NCBI RefSeq assembly: GCF_003473485.1
Contig: NC_053045.1
Span: 44,806,494 to 44,870,493 of the forward strand
Length of the DNA: 64,000 bases
Source: Medicago truncatula
Taxonomy: Eukaryota; Streptophyta; Magnoliopsida; Fabales; Fabaceae
Direction of reading: 5' to 3'
Shown here piece by piece: positions 44,608-64,000 of the stretch (positions are counted from its first letter, which is position 1; each line of letters opens with the position of its first letter). The notes under the pieces were generated by a model. The model did not search any database and had not been told where the DNA came from. It saw nothing but the letters and a program-made list of their open reading frames with translations. The translations under genes were made by a program, and so were the position numbers.

Positions 44608-46614
44608 ATGGCTCCTTTGTATGTTAGTCTTCACACTCAAACTCTTGTTTTATGTTATACAATAGGAATCATTTCCACCCTCCAAATAATCCATATTGCA
44701 AACTCACTATCATTTGAATACCCCTACTTTAAGAATGGTGATGTCAATTGGGAAGGAGATGCTTCTCCTTATAAAGGAGCTATTCAAATCACTTCTAATA
44801 CCCTTGACCAAAACAACAATTACAGTGTCGGGCGAGTCACAAGTTTCAAACAAATGCGTCTCTGGGATTTGAACTCTGGAAACCTCTCTGACTTCACCAC
44901 CAAGTTTTCCTTTGTCGTATATTCAAACAAAAGAGATTATGGAGATGGAATGGTATTCTTCTTGGCTGATCCAGCTCTCCCACTTTTGAAGAATATTTCA
45001 GAAGGAGGTGGTCTTGGCCTTGTGGATGGAAATCAAGTGCTAAAATCAACTCAGCACTCTTTTGTGGCAGTGGAGTTTGACACCTTCAATAATCCATGGG
45101 ACCCTCCAGGTGAAGGCACTCATGTTGGCTTGAATTTCAACTCTATGAGGTCTAACATAACTAAGCCATGGTTGACAAATATTCAAGAACGGAGAGTTTA
45201 CAATTGTAGCATTGAGTACAAATCAAGCACTCTAAATTTGAGTGTTTCATTCACCATGTATGATGATGATGATGATAAACCATTTGAAGAGTACATATCA
45301 CACAAGGTTGATTTGAGAGATGTCTTACCAGAGAGGGTTATTGTTGGCTTCTCTGCTGCAACAGGAATATTGTATGAGGTGCATACTCTCCGATCATGGT
45401 CATTTAGTTCAAGTCTACTAAGTGATGAGACCAAAAATCAGGTAGTGGCACCGATCCCCAGTCCTATAATTTCTGAAAAAGAAAACAAGATGGGATTGAA
45501 GGTGGGGCTTGGAATTGGTACAGGCTTGGCTGTGAGTTTATCAGGGTTGGTTTGTACTCTATTATGGAAGATGAGTAGAGGGAGAAAAGAAGAGTTTGGT
45601 TTTGATCTCAACATGGATGATGAATTCCAAAAGGGATCTGGACCTAAGAGATTTTCCTACAATGAACTAGTGAGTGCAACAAATAAATTTTCAGAGTCAG
45701 GTAAGGTAGGGCAAGGTGGTTTTGGTGGTGTATACAAAGGTTATTTGAAAGACTTAAATTCCTATGTTGCTGTCAAGAGGATATCAAGAGAGTCTAGACA
45801 GGGAATACTAGAATACGCCACTGAAGTGAAGGTCATAAGCCAATTGAGACACAGGAATTTAGTACAACTTCTTGGTTGGTGCCATAGGAAGAATGATTTT
45901 CTTCTTATATATGAGTTCATGTCAAATGGAAGCTTAGATTCTCATCTATACAGTAAAAAGAGCTTATTGACATGGACAATGAGGTATAATATAGCATTGG
46001 GCTTGGCTTCAGCATTGCTTTACCTACAGGAAGAATGGGAACAGTGTGTGCTTCACAGGGACATTAAATCCAGTAACATTATGTTGGATTCATGTTTCAA
46101 TGCTCGGCTTGGTGATTTTGGTTTAGCTAGGCTTGTAGATCATGAGACGGGGTCACAAACCACAATTATAGCTGGGACAAGGGGTTATATTGCACCTGAA
46201 TATTTCACATCAGGAAAGCCTACCAAGGAATCTGATATATTCAGCTTTGGAGTAGTGTTATTGGAAATAGCCAGTGGAAGGAAAGCTATTGAAAGAGAAG
46301 AAAAAGAGGGTCAAATAAGTGTAGTGGAGTGGGTTTGGGAGCTCTATGGATTGGGGAAGTTCCTTGAAGCAGTTGATCCCAAGTTATGTGGAGCATTTGA
46401 TGAGCAACAACTGGAACGTTTGGTGATTGTTGGCCTTTGGTGTGTTCATCCAGATTATTCATTCAGGCCTTCTATAAGACAAGTGATTCAGGTTCTCAAA
46501 TTTGAGTCTCCTTCACCAATACTTCCAGAAAAAATGCCTGTGCCAACCTATCTTCCTCCAACAATAAAAGCACTTTTTTCTTCAGTTTCGTCTATATATT
46601 GGACAAATAGTTAG
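44608..46614 (+). CDS. L-type lectin receptor kinase A (class IX-like), 668 aa
   Basis: Intronless, as usual for this family. A signal peptide of about 33 residues precedes a legume-lectin domain (SLSFEYPYF at about 33 to WSFSSSL at about 271) with the metal-binding pattern VEFDTFNNPWDP (E156, D158). A membrane helix at about 297-320 leads to a kinase with GQGGFGGVYKG, Lys390, HRD Asp485 and DFG Asp503, so all catalytic residues are present and the kinase is RD-type. The end (GLWCVHPDYSFRPSIRQVIQ, then VLKFESPSP and LPEKMPVPTYLPP) is characteristic of class IX LecRKs, plasma-membrane receptors linked to defence and cell-death signalling. The ligand is unknown. The cytoplasmic tail is short and lacks the Ser-rich extension of genes C and D. 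Confidence 0.95.
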   Translation: MAPLYVSLHTQTLVLCYTIGIISTLQIIHIANSLSFEYPYFKNGDVNWEGDASPYKGAIQITSNTLDQNNNYSVGRVTSFKQMRLWDLNSGNLSDFTTKFSFVVYSNKRDYGDGMVFFLADPALPLLKNISEGGGLGLVDGNQVLKSTQHSFVAVEFDTFNNPWDPPGEGTHVGLNFNSMRSNITKPWLTNIQERRVYNCSIEYKSSTLNLSVSFTMYDDDDDKPFEEYISHKVDLRDVLPERVIVGFSAATGILYEVHTLRSWSFSSSLLSDETKNQVVAPIPSPIISEKENKMGLKVGLGIGTGLAVSLSGLVCTLLWKMSRGRKEEFGFDLNMDDEFQKGSGPKRFSYNELVSATNKFSESGKVGQGGFGGVYKGYLKDLNSYVAVKRISRESRQGILEYATEVKVISQLRHRNLVQLLGWCHRKNDFLLIYEFMSNGSLDSHLYSKKSLLTWTMRYNIALGLASALLYLQEEWEQCVLHRDIKSSNIMLDSCFNARLGDFGLARLVDHETGSQTTIIAGTRGYIAPEYFTSGKPTKESDIFSFGVVLLEIASGRKAIEREEKEGQISVVEWVWELYGLGKFLEAVDPKLCGAFDEQQLERLVIVGLWCVHPDYSFRPSIRQVIQVLKFESPSPILPEKMPVPTYLPPTIKALFSSVSSIYWTNS

Positions 46615-47794: not shown

Positions 47795-49762
47795 ATGGCT
47801 CCTCCTATATTCTGCTATGCAAGGGGAACAATTATGCTTTTCCTGATAATCCCTCTTGCACATGCCCACCTTGTGTCTTTTGATTACCCTATGTTTAATC
47901 ACAACTGTAAAGAGCTACCAGAGCTTGATGGTGATGCCACTATTGAAGATTCTGACAATATTATTCAACTCACTGGGTATACTGATGACCCAGATAAGGC
48001 TTCTAGTGTTGGTCGAGTCACAAGTCCCAAACTTATCAAACTTTATAACAGAAGCACAAATGAAGTGTATGACTTTAGGACGAAGTTTTCTTTTACTATA
48101 TTTTCAAATCACAGTTCTTATGGAGATGGTTTGGCATTCTTCCTAGCAAGCTCAAATCTCACAAAAGCAAATCGTATAGGAGGTGGAGGGGGTTTTGGTC
48201 TTGTGCCTGCAAACGAAGTTGCTTTAAACTCAACTGAGTATTCAATTGTGTTAGTGGAGTTTGACACGCACAAAAATATTTGGGACCCAGGGTTCCCCCA
48301 CGTGGGAGTGAATATCAATTCTGTGGTGTCCGACACAAATATCGAATGGTTCTCAAATGTTTCGGAAAGGATGGTTTATAATTGTAGCATCGAATACATA
48401 TCCAGAAATAATGTTCTGAATGTTTCTTTCACTGGATACAGATTGAACGCATGGCAAGAGCCACAGAACTTTTCACACATCATTAATCTAAGAGAGCATT
48501 TACCAGAGTATGTTAGGGTTGGCATATCAGCTTCAACAGGAAAAGTGGACGAGGAACATATGCTGCTCTCATGGTCTTTTAGTACAAGCCAACCAAGTTA
48601 TTTTGTAGTTGATCCTCGGAAGACTAAATTGTGGGAGGGATTGGCAGTTGGTGGTGTATGTTTGTCTTGGAGTTTAGTAGCAATTTTAATCATTTTCTTG
48701 TGGAAGAAGAACAAAGGAAAAGAAGATGAACCTACTTCAGAAACCACTTCTGATCAGGATATGGATGATGAATTCCAAATGGGTGCTGGACCAAAGAAGA
48801 TTAGTTATTATGAATTGTTGAATGCAACAAACAACTTTGAAGAGACACAGAAGCTAGGCCAAGGTGGTTTTGGCGGTGTTTATAAGGGCTATTTTAAAGA
48901 CTCGAACTCAGTTGCAGCTATCAAGAGGATTTCAGCAGATTCAAGGCAGGGTGTAAAACAATACTCCGCAGAAGTGAAGATCATTAGCCAGTTGAGGCAT
49001 AGAAATTTAGTGAAACTCACTGGTTGGTGCCACAAGAAGAATGAACTTATCCTGATATACGAATACATGCCTAATGGCAGCTTAGACTTTCATCTTTTTC
49101 GCGGAGGAAGCATCTTGCCTTGGAACTTAAGGTACAATATAGCTCTTGGGTTGGCCTCGGCATTGCTTTATTTGCAGGAAGAATGGGAAAAATGTGTGAT
49201 TCATAGGGACATAAAATCAAGCAACATAATGTTGGACTCCGACTTCAATACTAAGCTAGGGGATTTTGGTCTAGCTAGGTTGATGGATCATGAGAAAGGG
49301 TCAGAAACCACAGTTGTAGCTGGAACCCGAGGTTACCTAGCACCTGAATACATTGACACAAGCAAGGCTAGAAAAGAATCAGATATATTTAGTTTTGGGG
49401 TTGTTTTGTTGGAGATAGCCTGTGGAAAAAAAGCCATACACCACCAAGAATTAGAGGGTGAAGTATCATTAGTTGAATGGGTTTGGGAGCTGTATGGATT
49501 GAGAAATCTAATTGTAGCAGCAGATCCAAAGCTATGTGGGATATTTGATGTGAAGCAATTGGAATGTTTGCTAGTTGTTGGACTTTGGTGTGCTAATCCA
49601 GATATCACTTCAAGACCATCGATAAAGAAAGTGATTAAGGTGCTCAACTTTGAAGCTCCATTACCAATTCTTCCACTAAACATGCCATTCTTAGCCTCTC
49701 TATCTCCTACAACTAATGAGCAATTTTTCTCCGTTCCTTCTTTCTTTAGGTCTACAGGTTAG
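47795..49762 (+). CDS. L-type lectin receptor kinase B (class IX-like), 655 aa
   Basis: Intronless plus-strand paralogue of gene A, sharing the MDDEFQ juxtamembrane motif. Signal peptide at about 1-25, then the lectin domain starting VSFDYPMF with VEFDTHKNIWDP, a membrane helix (LAVGGVCLSWSLVAILIIFL) and a kinase with GQGGFGGVYKG, Lys377, HRD Asp472 and DFG Asp490. It carries AAIK instead of AVK at the lysine motif, a conservative change. The kinase activation segment reads GTRGYLAPEYIDTSKARKES. Closest relation in the window is gene A, consistent with a local tandem duplication. Predicted plasma-membrane receptor; ligand unknown. Confidence 0.95.
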   Translation: MAPPIFCYARGTIMLFLIIPLAHAHLVSFDYPMFNHNCKELPELDGDATIEDSDNIIQLTGYTDDPDKASSVGRVTSPKLIKLYNRSTNEVYDFRTKFSFTIFSNHSSYGDGLAFFLASSNLTKANRIGGGGGFGLVPANEVALNSTEYSIVLVEFDTHKNIWDPGFPHVGVNINSVVSDTNIEWFSNVSERMVYNCSIEYISRNNVLNVSFTGYRLNAWQEPQNFSHIINLREHLPEYVRVGISASTGKVDEEHMLLSWSFSTSQPSYFVVDPRKTKLWEGLAVGGVCLSWSLVAILIIFLWKKNKGKEDEPTSETTSDQDMDDEFQMGAGPKKISYYELLNATNNFEETQKLGQGGFGGVYKGYFKDSNSVAAIKRISADSRQGVKQYSAEVKIISQLRHRNLVKLTGWCHKKNELILIYEYMPNGSLDFHLFRGGSILPWNLRYNIALGLASALLYLQEEWEKCVIHRDIKSSNIMLDSDFNTKLGDFGLARLMDHEKGSETTVVAGTRGYLAPEYIDTSKARKESDIFSFGVVLLEIACGKKAIHHQELEGEVSLVEWVWELYGLRNLIVAADPKLCGIFDVKQLECLLVVGLWCANPDITSRPSIKKVIKVLNFEAPLPILPLNMPFLASLSPTTNEQFFSVPSFFRSTG

Positions 49763-50825: not shown

Positions 50826-52310
50826 TCAGTGACATCTTCTCTTCAATTTGGCTCTGATGTTTCCGCGCCAAATGTGGGAGAGGAACGTTCTAGGTTTTCT
50901 CCTTTGGGATCAAAAGAACATTCTAGTTGGGCTTGGGCTTTGAACCCGAATTAATTGATATTGGGCTAAAACAAAAGTTGTGTTGCTTACTAGAAGATTT
51001 CTTTTTGAGCCACCTCCATATCTCTTAAGAACCCCTAAAACTACGAAATTTCCCTTAATGTCGCTCAAAATTCATTTTAAAATAAATTAATATAAAAATA
51101 TGACATAATATTAAATGATTAGATAATGAGTACGTACCCAACCGAACTTTAGGGATATTAGAGTGTTAAAATATTTTTATCAACAAAAACAACAAACAAA
51201 CTTCATTCAAATAAGTGAGGTCGGCTACATGAATCAAACCACGTCACAATATTTCATCATACAACACATTTATATCCAACACATTAGTTTATGGATTTTT
51301 TTTTAATAGTTTCTTTTATAGTTTCCTAGATGTTTCTCTCCTAATCATTTGACTACCTCTATCTAATTCATTCTCCTTACTACATAATTCATAAGTCTTA
51401 TCTTCGCATATCCAAACTCATGAGCCCTAGTTTACACCATCTTTTCTATTATAAATGCTATCATCCGTTAAAGACTTCTTTATCAATATTTATTTTTTAA
51501 AATTAATGGTTCTAAGAAAGAGTTGGATCTTGCAATGCTAGAAAGAACAATAAGAAAAGAAAAAAAAATGAAAATAATTGCCTCAAATAGGTAAGTTAGT
51601 GGGGTTTAAACATTGAAAAATGAAGTGCATTGGTTAAGAGAATAAAATAAAAAAATATAACATTGAATAAAAAATAATAAATTTAACTTTTTAAAAATTA
51701 AAATGTTATCAAATTACATATGTTGGTTAGCATAACCCTTAAACAATCACTTTAGGTTACACAATTACCAGCAAGGAAGGATTTGGTGTTTAAATGATAC
51801 ATTTGTAAAAATAAAATAAAAATGGGTCATGTTAATTTGTGCCCTAATGACACATGTTAAGGAACTCAAACAGAGCAATTTTACATTGGAAAACATGATA
51901 CTCCCTCCGTCTCAAATTGTATGTCACTTTAAAAAAAATATTTGTCCCAAATTATATGTCTCTTTACAATACCAATAAAAAATTAATATTACTTTTTCTA
52001 TTATATCCTTAACTATTTATTACTCTCTCTTCTTTCAATTCCTTCATTTATCTTTCACATATCATTTATTGAAGATAATTTTGTAAAACAACTCATAATA
52101 TATTTTTCCCACACAATATTAATTACATTTCTTAATATGTGTGAAATGCCCAAAACGTCATACAATTTGGGACGGAGGGAGTAGTTTAACTTTTAAGAAG
52201 TTGAATGCACGTTTTTTTATACATATATTTCTATAATGAGTTTGTTAACATGTGTCATTTGAGGGCACAGATTAGCATTCATCAATAAAAATATAAACAA
52301 ATTATCCGAC
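50826..52310. other. Intergenic between sHSP pseudogene 1 and kinase C
   Basis: AT-rich. Apart from the Stowaway MITE at 51901-52181, nothing could be recognised. Confidence 0.45.
51901..52181. mobile_element. Stowaway MITE
   Basis: Ends CTCCCTCCGTCTCAAATTGT and the reverse complement of CTCCCTCCGTCCCAAATTGT, directly flanked by TA on both sides (51899-51900 and 52182-52183). It is 281 bp and non-coding. The same superfamily signature is seen in OPT intron 1. Confidence 0.88.
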
Positions 52311-52607
52311 ATGTATTTTGAACAAGTTATCATTCAGGTCGTGTTGTATAAAATGAAGCAAATGAATTTTGAAAACGTGGATCATTTTTACATTAACGTG
52401 GACGGATTCATTGAAACATCGTACTCAAACGGATTGACCCGTTACCATACTAATTCAAAGGTAAACTCATTGATTAATTCCACCACCCAACACAAGCAAG
52501 TAATCTTCCCTATTAGTATTAACTAATATCTACTACATACACATAACCACTCCATGCCATGCCATTTTGTATGGTTCCATTATTTCCACAACATAAAATT
52601 TTCAGTT
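52311..52607 (+). promoter_or_regulatory. Duplicated 5' flank of kinase C
   Basis: This 5' flank is recognisably similar to the 5' flank of kinase E (about 62595-62852): both contain GAAGCAAATGAATTTT, an ACTAATTCA.AGGTAAA block, and CCATTATTTCC just before the start codon. The duplication that produced genes C and E therefore carried at least 280 bp of upstream sequence. No TATA box or factor site is assigned. Confidence 0.6.
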
Positions 52608-54737
52608 ATGGCATCGTCTTGCAACTATATGAAACCTCATCTTCTTGCTTTCTTTCATGTAACACTATCACTCTCGCTTCTTGTAACATCTCATGCAGCT
52701 CCATTAACTTTCAACTATGACAACCTTAGTAGTGACAAAACACATGCTTTAAATTTTTCAGGTGATGTCTACCATGACAACCAAGTCCTCCAACTCACGA
52801 GGTACGAGAAAGACAGTCTAGGTAGAGTCACATATTCAAAACTATTTCATCTTTGGAACATAAACACGAGTGAAGTCACGGATTTTACTACTCGTTTCTC
52901 ATTTACTATCAACACCCTCAACAAAACCGATCATTCAGATGGAATCACCTTCTATTTGGCACACCCCAATTTTCCACTACCTGTTCCAAGAGATGGAAGT
53001 GGTATTGGTCTCATGAGCAGCGTTCAATTAGCTACTCCAAATTACACAAAAGAAAATCCCTTTGTGGCTGTGGAATTTGATACATTTGTCAATACATGGG
53101 ATCCTACATATGATCATGTGGGGATTGATGTTAATTCAATCAGTACTTCTTACACAACCCAATGGTTCACTAGCTTGGACGAAAGAGGATATGATGTTGA
53201 TATTAGTTACAATTCTAGTTCAAACAATTTAAGTGTCACCTTCACAGGTTATGGAGATAACAACACAATCCAACAGAATTTGTTTCAAATTGTCAATCTA
53301 AGAGAAGTCCTACCTGATTGGGTTGAATTTGGCTTCACTTCAGCAACAGGGTTGTTTTGGGGGGAGGAACATACTCTTAGGTCATGGTCCTTCAACTCTA
53401 GTTTAGATTTTGAAGCACACAAAGACGAAGGAAAAACAGGACTTGTTATGGGACTAGCAGTGGGATTAGGAATTGGTGGATTTGTTTTGATTGGTGTATT
53501 GGGTCTTTTTTCCATTGTGTTGTGGAAGAAGTGGAAGAAAGAAAGTGAAGAGGAAGATGGTGAATTTGAAGAGTACATGGGAGAGGATTTTGGAAGGGGG
53601 GCAGGACCTAGGAAGTATACATATGCAGAATTAGCACACGCAGCTAATGATTTCAAAGACGAGTATAAGCTAGGACAAGGAGGATTTGGAGGTGTTTATA
53701 GAGGTTTTCTTAAAGACACAAAATCTTATGTTGCTGTTAAGAGGGTGTCAGAAGATTCACATCAAGGAATAAAGGAGTTCGCATCAGAAGTAACAATTAT
53801 TAGCAAATTAAGGCATAGAAATCTAGTGCAATTGATTGGTTGGTGTCATGAAAGAAAAAAGCTTTTACTTGTATATGAGTACATGCCAAATGGTAGTTTA
53901 GACATTCATCTTTTCAAAAATCAAAGTTTCTTGAAATGGGGTGTTAGATATACAATAGCTAGAGGCTTGGCTTCTGCACTGTTATATTTGCATGAAGAAT
54001 GGGAACAATGTGTTGTACATAGAGACATAAAAGCAAGTAACATCATGTTGGATTCAGAGTTTAATGCAAAACTTGGAGATTTCGGTTTAGCAAGGTTTGT
54101 GGACCATGCAAAAGGTGCACAAACTACAGCTTTAGCAGGGACTTTGGGATACATGGCTCCTGAATGTGCTACCACAGGAAGAGCTAGTAAAGAAACAGAC
54201 GTGTATAGTTTTGGTATTGTTGCTTTAGAGATAGCTTGCGGAAGAAAACCTATAATAAACCTTAAGGCTCAAGAAAATGAAATACATATTGTGGAGTGGG
54301 TTTGGGGGCTATATGGAAGAGGGAAAATTCTTGAAGCAGTAGATCCAAAACTAGATGGAGATTTTGAACAAGAACAAATCAAGTGCATGATGATTGTTGG
54401 TCTTTGGTGTGCTCATCCTGATCCTAATAATAGGCCTTCAATAAGACAAGCTATTCAAGTGCTTAATTTTGAAGTTCCACTTCCTAATCTTTCATCAAGT
54501 ATGCCTGTACCAACATATCTTGAGGGGCCTTTAAACTCTTTTTCAGCTCCATTCAGCACAAATAATTCAGAGGAAAGTCAAAACCAGAATATAAAAAGCT
54601 TTAGTTCAACTTCAAACTCATCTTGCTATTCCGTATCCTCTAAGACTCTTGCTTTTGAAAATAACCAAACAAGGACCTCACAATCAACCTTTGATGTCAT
54701 TTCTCCATCGGCTGCACTTCTAAATACATACCAATAG
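52608..54737 (+). CDS. L-type lectin receptor kinase C (class IX-like), 709 aa
   Basis: The ATG at 52608 is chosen over the in-frame ATG at 52554 because it starts directly before a good signal peptide (LLAFFHVTLSLSLLVTSHAA) and aligns with the start of gene E. Lectin domain with VEFDTFVNTWDP, a membrane helix in VGLGIGGFVLIGVLGLFSIV, an acidic juxtamembrane segment (EEEDGEFEEYMGEDFGRG) and a complete kinase: GQGGFGGVYRG, Lys378, HRD Asp473, DFG Asp491. The Ser-rich tail (about 75 residues) has many possible phosphosites. The activation loop reads GTLGYMAPECATTGRASKE; the Cys in APEC is shared with gene D but not with A or B. The ectodomain matches gene E and the kinase matches gene D, making this a likely chimera. 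Confidence 0.95.
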   Translation: MASSCNYMKPHLLAFFHVTLSLSLLVTSHAAPLTFNYDNLSSDKTHALNFSGDVYHDNQVLQLTRYEKDSLGRVTYSKLFHLWNINTSEVTDFTTRFSFTINTLNKTDHSDGITFYLAHPNFPLPVPRDGSGIGLMSSVQLATPNYTKENPFVAVEFDTFVNTWDPTYDHVGIDVNSISTSYTTQWFTSLDERGYDVDISYNSSSNNLSVTFTGYGDNNTIQQNLFQIVNLREVLPDWVEFGFTSATGLFWGEEHTLRSWSFNSSLDFEAHKDEGKTGLVMGLAVGLGIGGFVLIGVLGLFSIVLWKKWKKESEEEDGEFEEYMGEDFGRGAGPRKYTYAELAHAANDFKDEYKLGQGGFGGVYRGFLKDTKSYVAVKRVSEDSHQGIKEFASEVTIISKLRHRNLVQLIGWCHERKKLLLVYEYMPNGSLDIHLFKNQSFLKWGVRYTIARGLASALLYLHEEWEQCVVHRDIKASNIMLDSEFNAKLGDFGLARFVDHAKGAQTTALAGTLGYMAPECATTGRASKETDVYSFGIVALEIACGRKPIINLKAQENEIHIVEWVWGLYGRGKILEAVDPKLDGDFEQEQIKCMMIVGLWCAHPDPNNRPSIRQAIQVLNFEVPLPNLSSSMPVPTYLEGPLNSFSAPFSTNNSEESQNQNIKSFSSTSNSSCYSVSSKTLAFENNQTRTSQSTFDVISPSAALLNTYQ

Positions 54738-55169
54738 TTAGATTTCTTTTTTAAGATTTTTTTTCTCATTTATGCATGTTTTTCTTGTTGATTTGCGTTT
54801 GTGCTTGTATATTTTGCATAATTTTTTTATCATCAATATGCATTAGTATAAAGGGTTAGGTTTGGTTGAGTCAATTGGGTGTCCCTCATCCGACATGCAC
54901 ATTTGACTAATCTAGTATTTTAGACAGAACTGGATAGAATCGATGGGTACAATTCGATAAACAATTAATTAGTTACACCAAACCTAAGCATAAGACAATG
55001 TACAATTTAAAACTCTTCCAAAAAAACATATTATTCACATAATATTTTCAAAATTACAAAACACATTACATGTTATCTTTCTTTCTTACACACACAGAAC
55101 ACAAAACTTATTACATTAAAGCAAAGAAACACAATTCTAAACTGCAAAACAAAGTAAGAGAACTCAATT
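54738..55169. other. Spacer between kinase C and sHSP pseudogene 2
   Basis: AT-rich 3' flank of kinase C; no gene or element identified. Confidence 0.45.
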
Positions 55170-55546
55170 TGTACTTTACCAGAGATATCAATGGTTTTAA
55201 CTTCATGATTCTTGATCTCTTTTTTAGGCACAGTGACAGTGAGAATGCCATTCTCCATTGCAGCTTTCATTTGATCCATTTTAGCATTCTCAGGCAATCT
55301 TAATCTCCTCATGAACTTCCCACTGCTACGCTCCACGGGATGCCATTGATCGTTCTTATCTTCTTTCTCAACGCTTCTTTTTCCACTTATCTGAAGAACC
55401 CTATCATCTTCAATCTCTACTTTCGCTTCCTCCTTCTTCATTCCTGGAAAATCAGCATTGAACACGTGTGCTCCAGGAGTCTCTTCCAATCCACATGTGT
55501 GCTCACAAATGCAGAACTCTCACGAGACAATTCAGAAATTGATATA
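55170..55546 (-). pseudogene. Class I small heat-shock protein pseudogene 2
   Basis: Minus strand. [20 protein letters not shown] is followed by a one-base deletion (AAGAGACT where AAGGAGACT is expected). The alpha-crystallin domain then continues in another frame: [40 protein letters not shown] and [20 protein letters not shown] second one-base loss at the normal end (TCTGGTAAAG for TCTGGTTAAAG) removes the stop, so the frame runs on to 55073. The first third of the N-terminal arm is absent. The centre of the domain missing in pseudogene 1 is present here, so the two decayed independently. Confidence 0.87.
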
Positions 55547-55853
55547 GTTAATTTAATTTCATACTAGTGAGAACTCGCACAATGTAATCCTTATTTCTTA
55601 GTACTACTATTTCATATCACAAATTAGTCTGTAGTACTCATTTTTTATTTTGTTTGTGTTCTAAAAACGAGTTGGAGCTTGTTATGCTAGGAAGAATAAT
55701 TTACAAGAGAGACGAGTCAATTTGAATGAACAAATGAAAAATATTTGACATAAAAAATGTGATTAATAAACATACATAAAGAGAAGTTTTAAATAGATTC
55801 AAAAGAAAGAAAGACCGATTAAGACAAAATTAATTTTATCTAGAATACATAAG

Positions 55854-57941
55854 TCACATAGAAGGAGAAACATCATTAGAAGTAGTTGTAGTAGTCAAAC
55901 CAGATGAGTTTGTATTTGAACTAAAGCTTTCTATATTCATGTTTGGACCTTCCTCTGAACCATTTGTGTTGAATGGAGCAGTGAATGAATTCAAAGGGCC
56001 ATCAAGATATGTTGGTACAGGCATACTTGATGGAAGATTAGGCAATGGAACTTCAAAATTAAGCACTTGAATAGCTTGTCTTATTGAAGGCCTATTATTA
56101 GGATCAGGATGAGCACACCAAAGACCAACAATCATCATGCACTTGATTTGTTCCTCTTCATAATCTCCATCTAGTCTTGGATCTACTGCTTCAACAATTC
56201 TCCCTCTTCCATATAGCCCCCAAACCCATTCCACAATGTTTATTTCATTTTCTTGAGCATTAATTATTGGTTTTCTTCCACAAGCTATCTCTAAAGCAAC
56301 AATTCCAAAACTATACACATCGGTTTCTTTACTGGCCCTTCCTGTGGTAGCACATTCAGGAGCCATGTATCCCATAGTCCCTGCTAAAGCTGTGGTTTGT
56401 CCACCTTTTGCATGATCCACAAACCTTGCTAAACCGAAATCTCCAAGTTTTGCGTTAAATTCTGAATCCAACATGATGTTACTTGCTTTTATGTCTCTAT
56501 GTACAACACATTGTTCCCATTCTTCATGCAAGTACAACAATGCAGATGCCAAGCCTTTAGCTATTGTATATCTAACACCCCATTTCAACAAACTTTGTTT
56601 CTTGAAAAGATGAATGTCTAAACTACCATTTGGCATGTACTCATACACAAGCAAGAGTTTTTTCCTTTGATGACACCAACCAATCAATTGCACTAGATTT
56701 CTATGCCTTAATTTGCTAATTATCGTTACTTCTGATGCAAATTCCTTTATCCCTTGATGAGAATCTTCTGACACACTCTTAATAGCAACATAAGATTTTG
56801 TGTCTTTTAGAAAGCCTCTATAAACACCTCCAAATCCTCCTTGTCCTAGCTTATGCTCATCTTTGAAATTATTAGCTGCATTTGCTAATTCTGCATATGT
56901 ATACTTCTTGGGTCCTGTCCCTCTTCCGAAATCTTCACCCATGTACTCTTGAAATTCACCATCTTCCTGTTCTCTTCTTTTCCTCCACAAGAAAACCCAA
57001 ATAAAACCAAATACACCAATGAGAACAAATCCACCGGTTCCCAATCCCACTGCTAGTCCTGTCTTGGCCTTTTTGTTTGAAGATGGAGACTTTGTAACTG
57101 GGTCTTGTGTGTTTGTTTTGTTGTTATCTTGTTGTCCTTCTAAAGTTGAGCTAAAATCCCATGAAGAGATACTGTGTACAGCAGTGCGATTTCCAGTGGC
57201 AGCTGAGAAGCCAATAGTAACAAATTCTGGCAGATAAAGTCTAAGATCAACTATGGAAGATAAATGTTGATTCACAATGCTAGAAGTTACGTTATTAAAA
57301 CCAGTGAATAAAACACTTAGATTTAATGAACTAGCATTGTAATTGATCCAAGCCTCATTGAGTCTACCTTGTTTGATATCAGCCAACCATGTAACATTAG
57401 CAACAGACAGCATAGAGTTGATGTCGATTCCGGCATGTTCAAGAGGTGGATCCCAATGATTCCGATAGATATCAAACTCCACAGCAACAAATGGATTATC
57501 AGTTGAGTTCAACCTTTGATTATCAAGTGTTAGACCCATAGAACCACCTTTTGTTGCATTAGGCTTTTTTGAACCATAAGGGGCTAGGAAGAATGCAATC
57601 CCATCTCCATACATTTGTCTATTCTGTGAATCTATTGTAAATGTGAAATGAGATGTGAAATCTGTGAGATTGTTTGTGATTTTGTTCCAAAGATGGATAG
57701 GTTGGTAATATGTGGCTCTACCAATGCTTCCATAGTTGATTGTAAGTTGGATAGCTGATGAAGCAGGATTTGCTGATCCTTCATAGATTATGCTTTTGTC
57801 ATTCGGGTCAAAGCTAGTGAAATTAAAGGTCAATGAAGATGCATTTGGAATAAACAAGTTCAAGTTCAAGATTAAGAAAATTGTTAAAAATAAATAATTG
57901 GGAAACTGAACATGCATTGCTTTTGGTGATGCAAACAACAT
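55854..57941 (-). CDS. L-type lectin receptor kinase D (class IX-like), 695 aa, opposite strand
   Basis: The only kinase of the cluster on the minus strand, convergent with gene C. The start at 57941 or the in-frame ATG 8 codons later (MHVQFPNYLFLTIFLILNLN) both give a signal peptide; the second looks more typical. Lectin domain with VEFDIYRNHWDP, membrane helix VGLGTGGFVLIGVFGFIWVF, and a kinase with GQGGFGGVYRG, Lys388, HRD Asp483 and DFG Asp501, all catalytic residues intact. Its kinase half is almost identical to gene C while the lectin half is clearly diverged. The Ser/Thr-rich tail ends TTTTTSNDVSPSM. Predicted plasma-membrane receptor; ligand unknown. Confidence 0.95.
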   Translation of the reverse strand: MLFASPKAMHVQFPNYLFLTIFLILNLNLFIPNASSLTFNFTSFDPNDKSIIYEGSANPASSAIQLTINYGSIGRATYYQPIHLWNKITNNLTDFTSHFTFTIDSQNRQMYGDGIAFFLAPYGSKKPNATKGGSMGLTLDNQRLNSTDNPFVAVEFDIYRNHWDPPLEHAGIDINSMLSVANVTWLADIKQGRLNEAWINYNASSLNLSVLFTGFNNVTSSIVNQHLSSIVDLRLYLPEFVTIGFSAATGNRTAVHSISSWDFSSTLEGQQDNNKTNTQDPVTKSPSSNKKAKTGLAVGLGTGGFVLIGVFGFIWVFLWRKRREQEDGEFQEYMGEDFGRGTGPKKYTYAELANAANNFKDEHKLGQGGFGGVYRGFLKDTKSYVAIKSVSEDSHQGIKEFASEVTIISKLRHRNLVQLIGWCHQRKKLLLVYEYMPNGSLDIHLFKKQSLLKWGVRYTIAKGLASALLYLHEEWEQCVVHRDIKASNIMLDSEFNAKLGDFGLARFVDHAKGGQTTALAGTMGYMAPECATTGRASKETDVYSFGIVALEIACGRKPIINAQENEINIVEWVWGLYGRGRIVEAVDPRLDGDYEEEQIKCMMIVGLWCAHPDPNNRPSIRQAIQVLNFEVPLPNLPSSMPVPTYLDGPLNSFTAPFNTNGSEEGPNMNIESFSSNTNSSGLTTTTTSNDVSPSM

Positions 57942-58382
57942 TATTAGTTTATATGAAAATGCAAGACTCTCAAACTATTTTATATGAACTTCCTAGGCAG
58001 CCATTGTTTACTAACTATTCTTCCTTCCTATTTCGTTTACAAATGTGAAGTTTATTGCCACGTGTTCTAGAGGAAAAAAATACTGAGAAATGAGACTCAT
58101 TGTATAATTTATAAGCTACTTACTTAGCTCAATGACGTGTTGCTAAACAACTTATATGACATAATGTGCAAAATTCAATCAATTAAGATTACCCGATTTT
58201 GTTTTATCCGTAAATGGAATAATCATTTGCCTGAATTTAACTAATTCGTATACACCAAAACAAAATGTTCAATTGTAGAGTCTGCAAGTAGGGATTATTA
58301 TAATTAAGGTCTTATTGGCCAGTGCCTGAAGAGCATTGGTCAATGAATGTATAAATAATTGTTTTGATTAAATAATAGTTAC
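57942..58382. other. Upstream region of kinase D
   Basis: 5' flank of the minus-strand kinase D. No regulatory site could be supported. Confidence 0.4.
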
Positions 58383-58992
58383 CTATGAAGCCTCAATACT
58401 TCAAAAGTACCGTATCCCCTGTGTATCCTGCACCGATACCTACCCGATACGTATCAGAAGAGTATCCGAAGATTAAAATTTATTTTTTTTAAAAATAATT
58501 ATCTGATACTTCCTGATACGTATCAGGAGAGTATCTGATCATTATCCTACACCGGTATCTGCCCTGATACTTCCCAATTAATGTTAACTAAAATAACTTA
58601 ACTCTTGAGTAGTGATGTGTTCTTTTTTGAATATAGTGTTTCTTTTTTAGATCGATATAGTATAATACTAACAATGTTCCTTTTGGATATAGTATAACAC
58701 TGATGATGCTCTTTTTGGGATATATTGTGTATGTAATTGGCTAATAATCAATCTCTTAATCGTCAATATTATTTATATTTATATTTATGTTGATGTGTTG
58801 CGAGCCTATGACTGATTTATGTTGTTTGTTAATATATTTTCATATTAAAAAAATGGTATAATTATATTGTACATTTGTATATATAATTTTTTTTATTAAC
58901 GTATCTCAGTCGTATCGTATCTTAATTTTTGAAATTTTTTCGTATCAGTGCAGTATCGTATCCGTATCGTATTTCATATCCGGACTTCATAG
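58383..58992. mobile_element. hAT-type MITE with internal GTATC/GATAC repeats
   Basis: Ends CTATGAAGCC and GGACTTCATAG. Flanking octamers ATAGTTAC (58375-58382) and ATAATTAC (58993-59000) match at 7 of 8 bases, the hAT duplication size. The subterminal regions are crowded with CGTATC/GATACG units in both orientations, as expected for transposase-binding repeats. Confidence 0.8.
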
Positions 58993-59316
58993 ATAATTAC
59001 ATACTTTTCTCATGAAAATTTATTTGTTTTTTATGTTTAACCAATATCTTGACCATTGGTTCGCATTCTCCATATAATTATTATAGTTAATAAATCTAGG
59101 TTCCTTTACTTGCTTCGGATATTCAAATACCATGTTCTACAACAAAACAAACAAGGACTAAGTTTGACGCGCAAAATGGGTGATGGGCTGATGGCTTCTC
59201 AATCACGTTCTTCTACCCCACAGTACCTTTGCAATAACAAGGCAATGACGGAGAAAGTCCAAAAAGAAATTTGTGGTTTGAATTTCCATCATAACATATA
59301 TAATTCAAGGTGGCAT
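58993..59316. other. Intergenic, nothing recognised
   Basis: The frame at 59056-59373 shows no domain and runs into the inverted repeat at 59317. Confidence 0.4.
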
Positions 59317-60003
59317 TTCACACGTGAAAGGTTAATCTTTTTCCACCATGGAAAAGTTGGATTCAATGATTAGATTAAGTGAAGAACATATTCTTAACAT
59401 GCTCTTTCAACACTAGATTTTTCTTCACACTATCTTCCAATAATTTAAAAATTCTGAAATATAATTTTCAAAAATTAAAAAAATCGAAAAAAATTCAGAT
59501 AATTTTTTTTTAAAATTCTGCAATTCATTTATTGAATGTTAGAATTTTTTTTTTTGAAAAAATGAAAAAAAAAATTCCAGAATTTTATTTAAAAACCTTA
59601 TTTTCCCGAATTTTATTTTCTTAGAAAAATAAAAAACTTCAATTTCAAAATATTTTTTTTAGGATTTTTATTTATTTTTCAGAATATCTTATTTTATTAT
59701 GAAATTAAAAAATATATTCTTTTTAGAAAAATAAAAACTATAATTTTATTTTTTCAAAAAAAAGAAATCTGACATTCAATAAATGAATTACAGAATTTAA
59801 AAAAAAAATCTGATTTTTTTTATATTTTTTCGATTTTTTTAATTTCTGAAAATTAATTTTCAGAATTTTTAAATTGTTGGAAGATAGTGTGAAGAAAAAT
59901 CTAGTGTTGAGAGAACATGTTAAGAATATGTTCTTCACTTAATCTAATCATTGAATCCAACTTTCCCATGGTGGAAAAGGATTAACCTTTCCCATGTGAA
60001 CAC
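59317..60003. repeat. Long inverted repeat, near-palindrome of about 690 bp
   Basis: The left arm starts TTCACACGTGAAAGGTTAATC and reads through CACCATGGAAAAGTTGGATTC and AAGTGAAGAACATATTCTTA; the right arm is its reverse complement, ending near 60003. The arms are about 320 bp each with minor mismatches and meet in an A/T-rich centre near 59660. Transcription across it would give a very long hairpin RNA. It resembles a foldback MITE. Confidence 0.85.
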
Positions 60004-60298
60004 ACACCGTAATTCAATGTTCATATCAATTGAGTTAAGTTCACGAGAATAAGAAGAAAAAAAAAGTTCACAAGAACAAATTGATTTTAATGTTATATAT
60101 TGGTTCCATTTCTTTTTAAGTGTTGTTGTAGAATAATAACATCAAAAATTTTGTCAAAAAAAAAAAAATAACATCAAATTAACTAAGTGAATTTTTGGAT
60201 ATTTTTTTATTGGCTTAATTGCACTTTTGGCCCCCTATCTTTTCAAAAGTTGCGATTTTTGCCCCCTAACTAATTAAAATACAAAACAGCCCCCTATG

Positions 60299-60389
60299 TA
60301 TTGGATCTTTTTGCAGTTTTGGCCCCCAAGGTCACTTTTGGCCCCCTACATTTCCACTTTGGGGGCCAAAACTGCCAAAGATCCAATAA
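60299..60389. repeat. Hairpin of a TTTTGGCCCCC-type repeat
   Basis: ATTGGATCTTTTTGCAGTTT followed by GGCCCCCAA pairs with TTGGGGGCC followed by AAAACTGCCAAAGATCCAAT across a 30 bp loop. The preceding 60210-60300 holds more GGCCCCCTA motifs from the same repeat family, so this is probably the truncated end of a long-TIR element. Confidence 0.65.
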
Positions 60390-60414
60390 TTTAATTACCC
60401 ACCATTCTTCAAAG

Positions 60415-61221
60415 GGAAATTTTACCATACACCCCTACATCTATACTTTCACCCCAACATTTTACACAAACTTCCTATTATACCCTCCTATATAAACATA
60501 AGAGCATCCATTAATTATATTTTTCTCAATTTTTTCAAGCTTTCCGGTTTGCTACGGATCTTCTTCCTTTTCTTCCCTAGAAACCCAATGGTATTTCAAC
60601 ATTCATCATTCATTTTTCTTTTCGATTTTTACTTTTCATATAACAATCTTTTTGAATCTCTCATTTTCTGTTTGTTCATAATCATATTTATTATCTATTA
60701 AATCTAATTATTTTCCAATTCCAATTCTCATAAACTCTTAATTTCTTCTCTTATTTTCATTTGATTTCTCTTTTAAAATTATCCATTCATATCAAAACAA
60801 AATCTGCCGGAATAATATTCAGATTTCAATATGAATATGGTAAAATTCATTCACGCTTTGTTTTTCAGTTTTTACAATCCACTCACTCACTCTTCAATTG
60901 AATTGATCTGAGGATTGAAAAAAAAAAAGGCTCCCCTTTTTTGCTTGCTATCAACAGAACATGTAATTCTAATTTGAAAAGTGGAAAACAACTTTTGGAT
61001 TTTTCTATGTCTTTTGTTAATTGAAAAAGGCAAATATTGTAACTGCTTATAAGTTTATGTTTGGAAACGCTCAAGCTTGGTGTCCAGTTTACCTTTCCGT
61101 TCGGAAAAAATGGTAGGTAGGGGTGAACCGAAGTTGGAAAATTGGAAAAAGGGCAAAATTGAAATTTTTGGTAAATTGTAGGGGTGAATGTATAGAGGTA
61201 AGGGTATAGGGTAAAATTTCC
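60415..61221. mobile_element. MULE-like element with perfect 9 bp target duplication
   Basis: Inverted ends start GGAAATTTTACCATACACCC on the left and GGAAATTTTACCCTATACCC on the right strand. TCTTCAAAG flanks exactly at 60406-60414 and 61222-61230. The interior is T-rich and UTR-like, with no transposase. It is 807 bp. Confidence 0.82.
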
Positions 61222-61243
61222 TCTTCAAAGCTAATCTAGAAAA

Positions 61244-61280
61244 TTCCAAATGTGCAACACGCGCGGGTTTATACTACTAG
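61244..61280 (+). mobile_element. Helitron 3' terminus
   Basis: GCAACACGCGCGGGTTTATAC is followed by TACTAG and then T, the GC-rich subterminal plus CTAG-T ending typical of plant Helitrons. It abuts a lectin-kinase 3' fragment. The hairpin is weaker than at 14194 and the 5' end is unknown, so confidence is moderate. Confidence 0.5.
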
Positions 61281-61286
61281 TAAGTT

Positions 61287-61463
61287 TTTGAAGCTCCACT
61301 GCCTAATCTTTCATCAAGTATGCCTGGACCAACATACCTTGAGGGCCCTTTGAATTCATTCGCTGCTATTCTATTGTCAAAAAAAAACACAAACTCTTCT
61401 GTGTTTACTACTACAACTTCTGAGGATGTTTCTCCCTCTATGTCACTTCTCTATTCTAGATAA
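61287..61463 (+). pseudogene. 3' fragment of a class IX lectin receptor kinase
   Basis: An open stretch of 58 codons plus TAA reads FEAPLPNLSSSMPGPTYLEG and ends SEDVSPSMSLLYSR, matching the tails of kinases C and D (FEVPLPNLSSSMPVPTYLEG and DVSPSM). Everything upstream of this point in the kinase is missing; six bases to the left is the Helitron CTAG end. It is a remnant of a sixth gene in the cluster. Confidence 0.85.
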
Positions 61464-62137
61464 AATTAATTTTATTTTAATTAATCCATATATCTTTCTT
61501 TCTTTCTTTTGAACGTATTTAGAACTTGTCTTCATGTACCCTTATTAATCATATTTGTTTATGTCTCAGACACTTTAGATTTGTTTATTGAAATTGACTT
61601 AGTTCTCTAGTTAATAATTGTTCTTCCTCACATAGCAAATTAAACTCCAACTCTTTCTTAGAACCATTGATAAAAAATGAGTAGTGATATTTTGACAACC
61701 ATTTTGATATAATTTTTGAGATAATTTTGTTGTTCTCTCTTTTTATTGATCAAAAACAATAGAGAGAGAAAAATGTAGAGAGAGAATAAAAACATAATGT
61801 GGGTATGAGAGAGAAAGTTATACAAAAATATTACCAAAATAGTTGTACAAATATCATTTCTCATAAAAAAATATATATATATTAGAACCTTTCTTTGTTT
61901 TTCATGAATAGGAAATTGTTAGTATATTTGTTGTTGAAATGCTGTCCACCAACTCTACTTATTGCGAATATCTCACGTAGTAATTGATGATCAATCATCA
62001 ATTACGAATCATAAACCTACAATACCAACAACATACGTTGTATTATTATTTTCTCGTTCACTCATGTTCGAAGGTAAGTTCTTTAACTACTTTAAATTTT
62101 TAACTCTTAATTCAAATTAGTTGAACTGTCAACCAAG
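61464..62137. other. Intergenic with a short TIR repeat
   Basis: 61679-61863 is an inverted-repeat MITE: GTAGTGATATTTTGACAACC on the left matches the reverse complement of the right end (GAAATGATATTTGTACAACT). A GAGAGAGAAA-rich loop lies between. No gene. Confidence 0.6.
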
Positions 62138-62145
62138 TATAGAAC

Positions 62146-62419
62146 CAGGGGCGGAGCCAACCCCAGCTAGCTTAGGCACTAGCTCAAGCTCAGCTCCTAC
62201 TTTCTTTGTAGCAAGTCCAGCAATCTCTCACTTTTTCTGCTGATTTACCTGCGGATTTTTGTATAAATTCTGCAGGAAACATATTTCCTGCGGATTTTGC
62301 CAAGAATTTAGGTTCCCAGGTGTGGTAATACCTTAGGATTTTAGGATCCGCAGGAAGGAAATATTGTTTTGCGATAATTTTTTTGTCCAAGCTTTATAAA
62401 ATTCCTAACTGCGCCACTG
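62146..62419. mobile_element. hAT-type MITE with perfect 8 bp target duplication
   Basis: Ends CAGGGGCGGAGCCAAC and, in reverse complement, CAGTGGCGCAGTTAGG. TATAGAAC flanks both sides exactly (62138-62145 and 62420-62427). It is 274 bp; the CAGxGGCGxAG end type is known from plant hAT MITEs. The internal CTGCGGATTT-like motif is repeated in both orientations. Confidence 0.88.
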
Positions 62420-62852
62420 TATAGAACCTTTCTTGTTTAAATGTTTAAAAAATATCACTATATATTTGCATATATAAACATCACAAGAAAAACATTACTA
62501 CTATAAAATTATTTCAATAGAAATTCAAAGCTTATACGATAATATAATAACAATTCATTGACCTATTTCTTATTATAAACTTCATTGACTTCTATGGTGT
62601 TATAGAAATTGAAGCAAATGAATTTTCGAAGCTTAGGTCATTTTTGCACGTATATAGATGGATTATTAGAAACAGAGGACTCATAAACGAATTGACCAAG
62701 ACTAATTCAGAGGTAAATCCAAAGACTCATTCAACTACCTAACACATTAAGTAACCTTTACCCATCAATGACTATTACAACTACATGCAACCACTCCATG
62801 CTCATTTTGTGTAATAATTCCATTATTTCCAAGCAATATCAAACTTGCAATT

Positions 62853-64000
62853 ATGGCACCATCTTGCTACCATCACAAACCTCACCTTCTTGCTTTCTTT
62901 CATGTAACATTAACATTCTTGCTTCTTGTAACATCTCGTGCAGCTCCATTATCATTCAACTATGAACAACTTGGTGGTGACAAAACAAATACCTTCAATA
63001 TTTCAGGTGATGTCTCTCAAGACAACCAAGTCCTCCAACTCACAAATTATGAGAAAGACAGTCTAGGCAGAGTCACATATTCAAAATTGTTTCATCTTTG
63101 GAACATTAACACAAGTGAAGTCACAGATTTCACTACTCGTTTCTCATTTTCTATCAACACCCCCAACAAAAGTTATCATGGAGATGGCATCACCTTCTAT
63201 TTGGCACGCCCCAATTTTCCTATGTCCCAAATAGATGGAAGTGGTATCGGTCTAGCGAGCCGTGTTCAATTGAGTAATCCAAATTACACAAAAGAAAATC
63301 CATTTGTAGCTGTGGAATTTGATACATTTGTTAATGACTGGGATCCTAAATATGATCATGTTGGGATTGATGTTAATTCTATCAGCACTAATCACACTAC
63401 ACAATGGTTCACTAGCATGGATGAAAGAGGATATGATGCTGAAGTGAGTTATGATTCAAGTTCAAACAATTTAACTGTCACATTCACAGGTTACCAAGAT
63501 AACAAAACAATCCAACAGCACCTGTTTTATGTTGTTAATCTACGAGATGTTCTACCGGATTGGGTTGAATTTGGATTCACTTCTGCAACAGGATTTTTCT
63601 GGGAGTATCATACTCTTAACTCATGGTCATTCAACTCAAGTCTAGATTTTGAAGCAAAAAAAGATGGAACAAAAACAGGACTTGTTATAGGACTCGGTGT
63701 TGGTGGAGCTGTTGCTTTGATTTGTGTTATTGGGCTGGTTTGTCTCTTGAAATGGAAGCTGAGGAATAAAGGCATGAAGGATGAATCACATTTTGATCTT
63801 GCAATGGATAGTGATTTTGAGAGAAGCTCTCTACCTAAGAAATTTACCTATGAAGAACTTGCTAGATCAACTAACAACTTTGCAAATGAACACAAAATTG
63901 GAGCTGGAGGTTTTGGAGCAGTGTACAAGGGATTTATAAGAGACTTGAAACATCATGTTGCAATTAAGAAGGTTTCTAAGGAATCAAATCAAGGAGTGAA
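62853..64000 (+). CDS. L-type lectin receptor kinase E (class IX-like), 3'-incomplete at window end
   Basis: Open from ATG 62853 to the window edge (382 codons and two bases). Signal peptide HLLAFFHVTLTFLLLVTSRA, lectin domain with VEFDTFVNDWDP and HVGIDVNSIS, membrane helix about 277-300 (VGGAVALICVIGLVCLL), juxtamembrane FDLAMDSDFERSSLPKKFTY, then the start of the kinase with GAGGFGAVYKG and Lys372 in HVAIKK. The P-loop starts GAGG rather than GQGG. The ectodomain is very close to gene C but the kinase clearly differs from C and D. The rest lies beyond the window, so its integrity cannot be judged. Confidence 0.92.
   Translation, partial: MAPSCYHHKPHLLAFFHVTLTFLLLVTSRAAPLSFNYEQLGGDKTNTFNISGDVSQDNQVLQLTNYEKDSLGRVTYSKLFHLWNINTSEVTDFTTRFSFSINTPNKSYHGDGITFYLARPNFPMSQIDGSGIGLASRVQLSNPNYTKENPFVAVEFDTFVNDWDPKYDHVGIDVNSISTNHTTQWFTSMDERGYDAEVSYDSSSNNLTVTFTGYQDNKTIQQHLFYVVNLRDVLPDWVEFGFTSATGFFWEYHTLNSWSFNSSLDFEAKKDGTKTGLVIGLGVGGAVALICVIGLVCLLKWKLRNKGMKDESHFDLAMDSDFERSSLPKKFTYEELARSTNNFANEHKIGAGGFGAVYKGFIRDLKHHVAIKKVSKESNQGV

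Follow-up and report, generated by a model that had tools for sequence, protein, structure and literature searches.

The right third of a 64,000-nucleotide window of the Medicago truncatula genome (G000:C4:44806494-44870493, from 430 Mb in 42 contigs) carries lectin receptor kinase genes A to E, five in all, of which D lies on the minus strand and only the start of E is included. The window is the whole stretch of DNA that was analysed, and positions refer to it unless a contig is named. Members of the L-type lectin receptor kinase family are candidate microbe sensors. One of these genes, gene C, is a mosaic. Very probably it began as a gene of the type of E and of F, the sixth cluster member, and then had some 1.17 kb overwritten by D-type sequence, from inside the membrane helix as far as the proximal tail, either by non-allelic gene conversion or by a double crossover with the same effect. 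Gene F follows E outside the window, at C4:44879475-44881520. Two joints were observed in C, with E-type sequence on both flanks, a D-type tract between them and a reading frame that stays open through both.

Mosaic structure of gene C

Gene C (52608 to 54737, plus strand) was identified by its open reading frame (ORF), by matches to the Pfam models Lectin_legB and Pkinase, and by its kinase motifs, and encodes an L-type lectin receptor kinase of 709 amino acids in a single open frame. The ORF opens at 52554, and the ATG equivalent to the start of E and F lies at 52608. The P-loop, VAVK, HRDIK, DFG and APE motifs are all present in the kinase, and hydropathy places a membrane helix between the lectin and kinase domains.

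In 40-codon windows, nucleotide identity between C and E was 81-90% in the lectin half and 56-70% past the helix. Identity between C and D was 40-67% in the lectin half and 79-97% across the helix and kinase, before falling back to 71% and then 54% in the two windows nearest the C terminus. Within the kinase, C and D agree at 278 of 298 residues. The left E-type part of C (52341 to 53455, plus strand) comprises the upstream region, the N-terminal leader, the lectin domain and the first helix residues; its match to E starts about 270 bases upstream of the C start codon, and the E register ends at a GGACT pentamer. The D-type tract (53451 to 54623, plus strand; 1,173 bp) is 90.5% identical to positions 57059-55902 in D and supplies the rest of the helix, the juxtamembrane segment, the kinase and the proximal tail. 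The right E-type part (54639 to 54795, plus strand) holds the last codons and the start of the 3' untranslated region (UTR), and it matches E at 64773-64814 and 64836-64969 and F over the corresponding part. The local DNA matches to E cover 54639-54680 and 54669-54795 in C and thus extend past the C stop codon at 54737.

The same structure was recovered from the 699 informative sites. Log likelihoods (lnL) were -484.4 for a model without a joint, -280.8 with one joint and -227.3 with two. The one-joint model gained 204 log units, which none of 1,000 permutations reached, and the second joint added a further 54. In the bin at 54550, 21 sites placed C with D and three placed it with E, and in the bins at 54650 and 54700 together 23 sites placed it with E and seven with D. 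At third codon positions, C sided with D at 16 of 130 sites in the lectin part, 137 of 150 in the tract and 0 of 11 in the tail. Because the tail and 3' UTR are E-like again and the two-joint fit is best, C is read as a gene of E type that holds an island of D type.

The left joint falls at 53451-53455 in a base-level pairwise comparison. There, C follows E up to the GGACT that ends at 53455 and follows D from the GGACT that starts at 53451, with a register shift of 12 bases. As a result of this out-of-register join, C reads TGLVMGLAVGLGIGG at the helix, where E reads TGLVIGLGVGG and D reads TGLAVGLGTGG. Pairwise alignments show an E-type GLVM followed by a D-type GLAV in this region (53442 to 53462, plus strand), and C alone carries both parental versions of the 12-bp helix segment in tandem, with four extra residues relative to both parents. 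At 30 residues, the uncharged helix stretch of C exceeds that of D (26) and those of E and F (25 each). The right joint lies at 54624 to 54638 (plus strand), in the gap that separates the D match from the E match downstream of it. The composite tail of C, at 87 residues, is the longest; that of D has 65 residues and those of E and F have 68.

The original prediction, which was drawn from the sequence alone, held that C and E share a leader and lectin domain and that C and D share a juxtamembrane segment and kinase; identity windows, informative sites and trees all bear this out, and the motifs that it quoted are present in the sequences. Instead of the uniform identity profile that would have spoken against a swap, the profiles of C against D and against E both switch. 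The lectin domains of C and E had been described as near-identical. They are shared but only similar, with 82% protein identity over 228 tree columns and agreement at 217 of 272 ectodomain residues, signal peptide included. The kinases of C and E were said to differ from the P-loop on; they do differ, but the divergence already sets in inside the membrane helix, 47 residues ahead of the point where the kinase starts. A single switch had been placed at the helix, at about 53440-53480. The pairwise left joint agrees with that position, but the claim of a single switch overlooked the second joint, after which C is E-like.

Synonymous sites, trees and age

The contrast between the two halves is also present at synonymous sites, so constraint on the protein sequence does not explain it. 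Synonymous divergence (dS) between C and D was 1.93 in the lectin half versus 0.24 in the kinase half, and between C and E about 0.39-0.40 versus 1.45. Counted directly, 101 of 146 synonymous sites differed between C and D in the lectin half, against 39 of 189 in the kinase half (Fisher 1.9e-19). The pattern was reversed for C and E, with 44 of 144 and 122 of 191, respectively (1.8e-9), and E and F differed at 20 of 142 and 1 of 193. Substitution comparisons of the halves covered 22 of the 30 loci.

Of the 30 loci, 20 went into the tree of the kinase half and 18 into that of the lectin half, and the groupings tested had been named by the original prediction before the trees were built. The lectin tree joins C, E and F with support of 100/99, with E and F as the closest relatives of the C lectin half, and a forced C+D grouping is rejected by the approximately unbiased (AU) test (3.5e-52). 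The kinase tree joins C and D with the same support of 100/99 and rejects a forced C+E+F grouping (AU 3e-4). The two halves therefore have conflicting topologies, and the matching topologies that would have told against the prediction were not obtained. A full-length tree of such a cluster blends two histories that disagree, so lectin and kinase are best treated separately.

With a rate of 1.5e-8 per site per year, as given for a peanut survey (PMC8215822), rough ages are about 8 million years for the C/D tract (dS 0.24), 13 million for the C/E lectin (dS 0.39) and 5 million for the E/F lectin (dS 0.16), all of them order-of-magnitude figures.

Donor, direction and competing explanations

In a genome search, the C tract found a single match that is both close and long, the region of D at 55902-57059, at 90% over 1,173 positions. 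The next long match is 72% identical, and a 75-base piece of a D-type relic matches at 89%. A donor-like copy is thus retained elsewhere in the genome, and C has the internal tract with two boundaries between flanks of another lineage that marks a product of non-allelic gene conversion. The donor was probably D or a close sister of D. That C was the recipient is favoured by parsimony; the main local reason is the tandem helix duplication found in C alone, and the long composite tail and the donor search point the same way. A domain swap or gene conversion between neighbours had been predicted, and of the two, gene conversion is the better option. D lies tail to tail with C, and the exchange may have taken place during repair between these inverted neighbours.

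A simpler origin for C would be a fusion by one crossover, in which an E-type front was joined to a D-type back and everything downstream is D-like. One joint does already account for most of the site signal, with its gain of 204 log units. However, the model with two joints is better by a further 54 units, and the sequence downstream of the left joint is not wholly that of the second parent, since the E-like tail and 3' UTR at 54639-54795 contradict such a fusion unless a later event restored that segment. For this reason gene conversion is preferred, and a one-crossover fusion is very unlikely. It is somewhat less improbable, though still unlikely, that D is the altered gene, such that the kinase of C is original and was passed to D while the kinase of the common ancestor of E and F was replaced. 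The deep kinase trees are compatible with this history, but it requires two events. The duplicated joint and composite tail are found in C and in none of D, E and F. In a genome search with the E/F kinase, matches other than F itself stayed at or below 73%, short pieces of about 40-60 bases aside, although the donor could have been lost.

An absence of any exchange, with a constrained kinase and a fast-changing lectin domain imitating a mosaic, has next to no probability. Nonsynonymous divergence (dN) is indeed greater in the lectin half than in the kinase half in all 42 comparison pairs outside Chr4 (34 within clusters and eight with L026). Such a rate difference is already contradicted by the switch, which is equally strong at synonymous sites, by the C/E profile, which is the reverse of C/D, and by noncoding DNA on both sides that groups with E; of the 42 pairs, six have halves that differ in dS at p < 0.05 before correction, and after correction only L019/L025 does. 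An assembly artefact is also extremely improbable. The perfect identity between E and F over 1,023 bp is of a kind that collapsed or over-polished copies can imitate, but 65 of 996 bases differ before that tract and should be resolvable by reads. About 10% of sites in the C tract differ from D, so the tract is not a misplaced copy of D, and the frame is open throughout.

Several observations weigh against the reading of C as an E/F-type recipient of D-type sequence. In deep kinase DNA trees of 12 sequences with constraint tests, neither E/F nor C/D held with the A/B group was rejected (AU 0.21 and 0.27 when every codon position was used). On codon positions 1 and 2 alone, E/F with A/B gave AU 0.35, and C/D with A/B was the best tree, with support of 41/29. 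The C/D tract dS of 0.24 +/- 0.04 is lower than the C/E lectin dS of 0.39 +/- 0.07 by only about two standard errors. The position of the left joint shifts with the method, from 53451-53455 in the pairwise comparison to 53461-53473 in the one-joint fit and 53489-53493 in the two-joint fit. Finally, a relic at 61286 to 61683 (plus strand), which is the decayed 3' end of a further D-type gene and comprises kinase end, tail and 3' flank, joins a D-type tail to a D-type flank, and its noncoding part has 34 mismatches to D among 214 aligned positions. The relic had been taken as proof that D belongs to the donor lineage, and this was withdrawn: divergence between the relic and D in noncoding sequence is not greater than that between C and D in the tract, so the relic does not polarise the event.

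The product of C is predicted to be an ordinary plasma-membrane receptor kinase with a leader, a lectin sensor, a helix and a kinase. Under gene conversion into C, its sensor, upstream DNA and distal tail would be those of its own lineage; it would sense as its E/F relatives do and would signal through a D-lineage kinase with a composite tail. A new sensor-output pairing, as originally proposed, is true of the anatomy of C, and its output may have been changed by the new kinase. As only the helix and kinase have been replaced and both parental types are adjacent, C offers a natural experiment on whether the kinase half sets the output.

Apparent recurrence in lectin receptor kinase clusters

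E and F show no differences from 63849 to 64871 in E coordinates (1,023 bp), across the kinase; the coding differences between them are 65 of 996 bases before this tract and three of 30 after it. None of 10,000 permutations gave a run as long. The part of the tract within the window is 63849 to 64000 (plus strand), and the tract ends beyond the window at the equivalent of 64871.

Joint scans with permutations were carried out for the top 12 of 60 Chr4 triples, the top 12 of 252 triples of a Chr7 set (eight Chr7 genes and L026 from Chr1), and all three triples of each three-gene set. The best of the 252 was that of L019 (Chr7): up to residue 273, 73 of 98 informative sites group it with L025, and beyond that residue 84 of 112 group it with L021; none of 300 permutations reached this signal. 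The joint lies 47 residues before the kinase start in both C and L019, and 9 residues after it in the E/F tract. Little signal was found in the three-gene sets (Chr8; L016, L017 and L020, the last on Chr5), where the best case (L009) was reached by three of 300 permutations and the other five by 26 to 293. A nearest-partner table for 28 of the 30 loci flagged 15 of the 28 as partner switchers and was not used as evidence because most flags are near ties.

Together, the E/F kinase tract and L019 point to a recurring process in these clusters. We tentatively propose, as a possibility that is less than even, that gene conversion in such clusters repeatedly swaps out the whole kinase at once, with one edge of the tract at or close to the membrane helix, leaving sensors to diverge and kinases to be shared or exchanged; C, L019 and E/F would fit this pattern. 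If so, the clusters would be a standing generator of new sensor-output pairs. Further mosaic signals occur at Chr7 29.28-29.37 Mb (L019, L021, L022 and L028). Within the Chr7 set, L021 has joints in the kinase (+146 and +194), and L022 (-159) and L028 (-127) have theirs in the lectin domain. A hotspot at the helix is therefore suggested only, and these joints count against a strict one.

Relation to known receptor kinase clusters

Gene conversion and exchange between ectodomain and kinase in receptor kinase clusters have been published. C adds a well-resolved case to this known process; its interest lies in the clean joints and in the apparent recurrence. As in C, ectodomain and kinase trees disagree in the CRK (DUF26) receptor kinases (PMC6368629). 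Those receptors are cysteine-rich, unlike C, and the passages of that paper on exchange describe it at tree level, with no base-level two-joint tract (PMC6368629). In the Arabidopsis OAK cluster of tandem receptor kinases, an identical stretch of 2.7 kb was credited to recent gene conversion, and natural domains were swapped and assayed in plants (PMC3136440). The tract shared there is the ectodomain, ending 60 bp into the kinase, whereas in C the kinase is the converted part (PMC3136440). Among receptor kinase clusters of peanut, also a legume, 28 gene conversion events were reported in 52 tandem clusters, with tracts of 16-1771 bp (PMC8215822). The sections of that survey concerned with conversion give counts without a description of sensor/kinase re-pairing, which C shows (PMC8215822). 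Studies of the L-type lectin receptor kinases, the same gene family as C, include one in Brassicaceae that reports tandem expansion (PMC5322546) and one in soybean (PMC5897391). The term 'gene conversion' has no occurrence in the main text of the soybean study (PMC5897391), nor does 'conversion' in that of the Brassicaceae study (PMC5322546). Among the titles and abstract openings retrieved on lectin receptor kinases and gene conversion, including Medicago truncatula and with most subscription journals outside the scope, none describes this mosaic.

Other features of the cluster

Genes A (44608 to 46614, plus strand) and B (47795 to 49762, plus strand) served as comparison neighbours and were defined by ORF, Pfam match and tree. 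Gene D (55854 to 57941, minus strand) is a receptor kinase defined by ORF and Pfam match. Gene E (62853 to 64000, plus strand) is cut by the window end and continues beyond it; the complete gene (L002) encodes 683 amino acids. All five genes match legume lectin and protein kinase models in Pfam. The legume lectin ectodomain (PF00139) was matched at 8e-57 in C, 6e-68 in D and 4.1e-59 in E. The Pkinase match is above cut-off in C and D; that of E, truncated by the window end, scores 21 bits and is below it.

Upstream DNA is common to C and E, where it lies at 62597-62795, and is absent from F (L033). The similarity between E and F ends about 60 bases 5' of the start codon, so the F upstream region differs despite a near-identical gene. 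Upstream of C, positions 51487-51684 are similar to the 3' flanking sequence of both D and the D-type relic and are another trace of D-type copies in the cluster.

Between C and D lies a dispersed repeat (55100-55540), parts of which recur downstream of B, E and F; another 11 places also carry parts of it, including four on Chr4 at 43.0 and 44.2 Mb. At G000:C8:37660794-37661031 there are fragments that share 70-82% identity with the beginning of the D lectin domain, with pieces of the same repeat nearby at C8:37659278-37659505; the fragments are possibly the remnant of a moved D-type gene. Between D and E, positions 59302-60014 form a near-palindrome of 713 bp, about 79% self-complementary, with at least 42 other matching places on both strands among the candidates scored, and for these reasons it looks like a foldback-type repeat element. 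Elsewhere in the window, a 1.15 kb stretch at 42115-43261 matches its own reverse complement at 66%.

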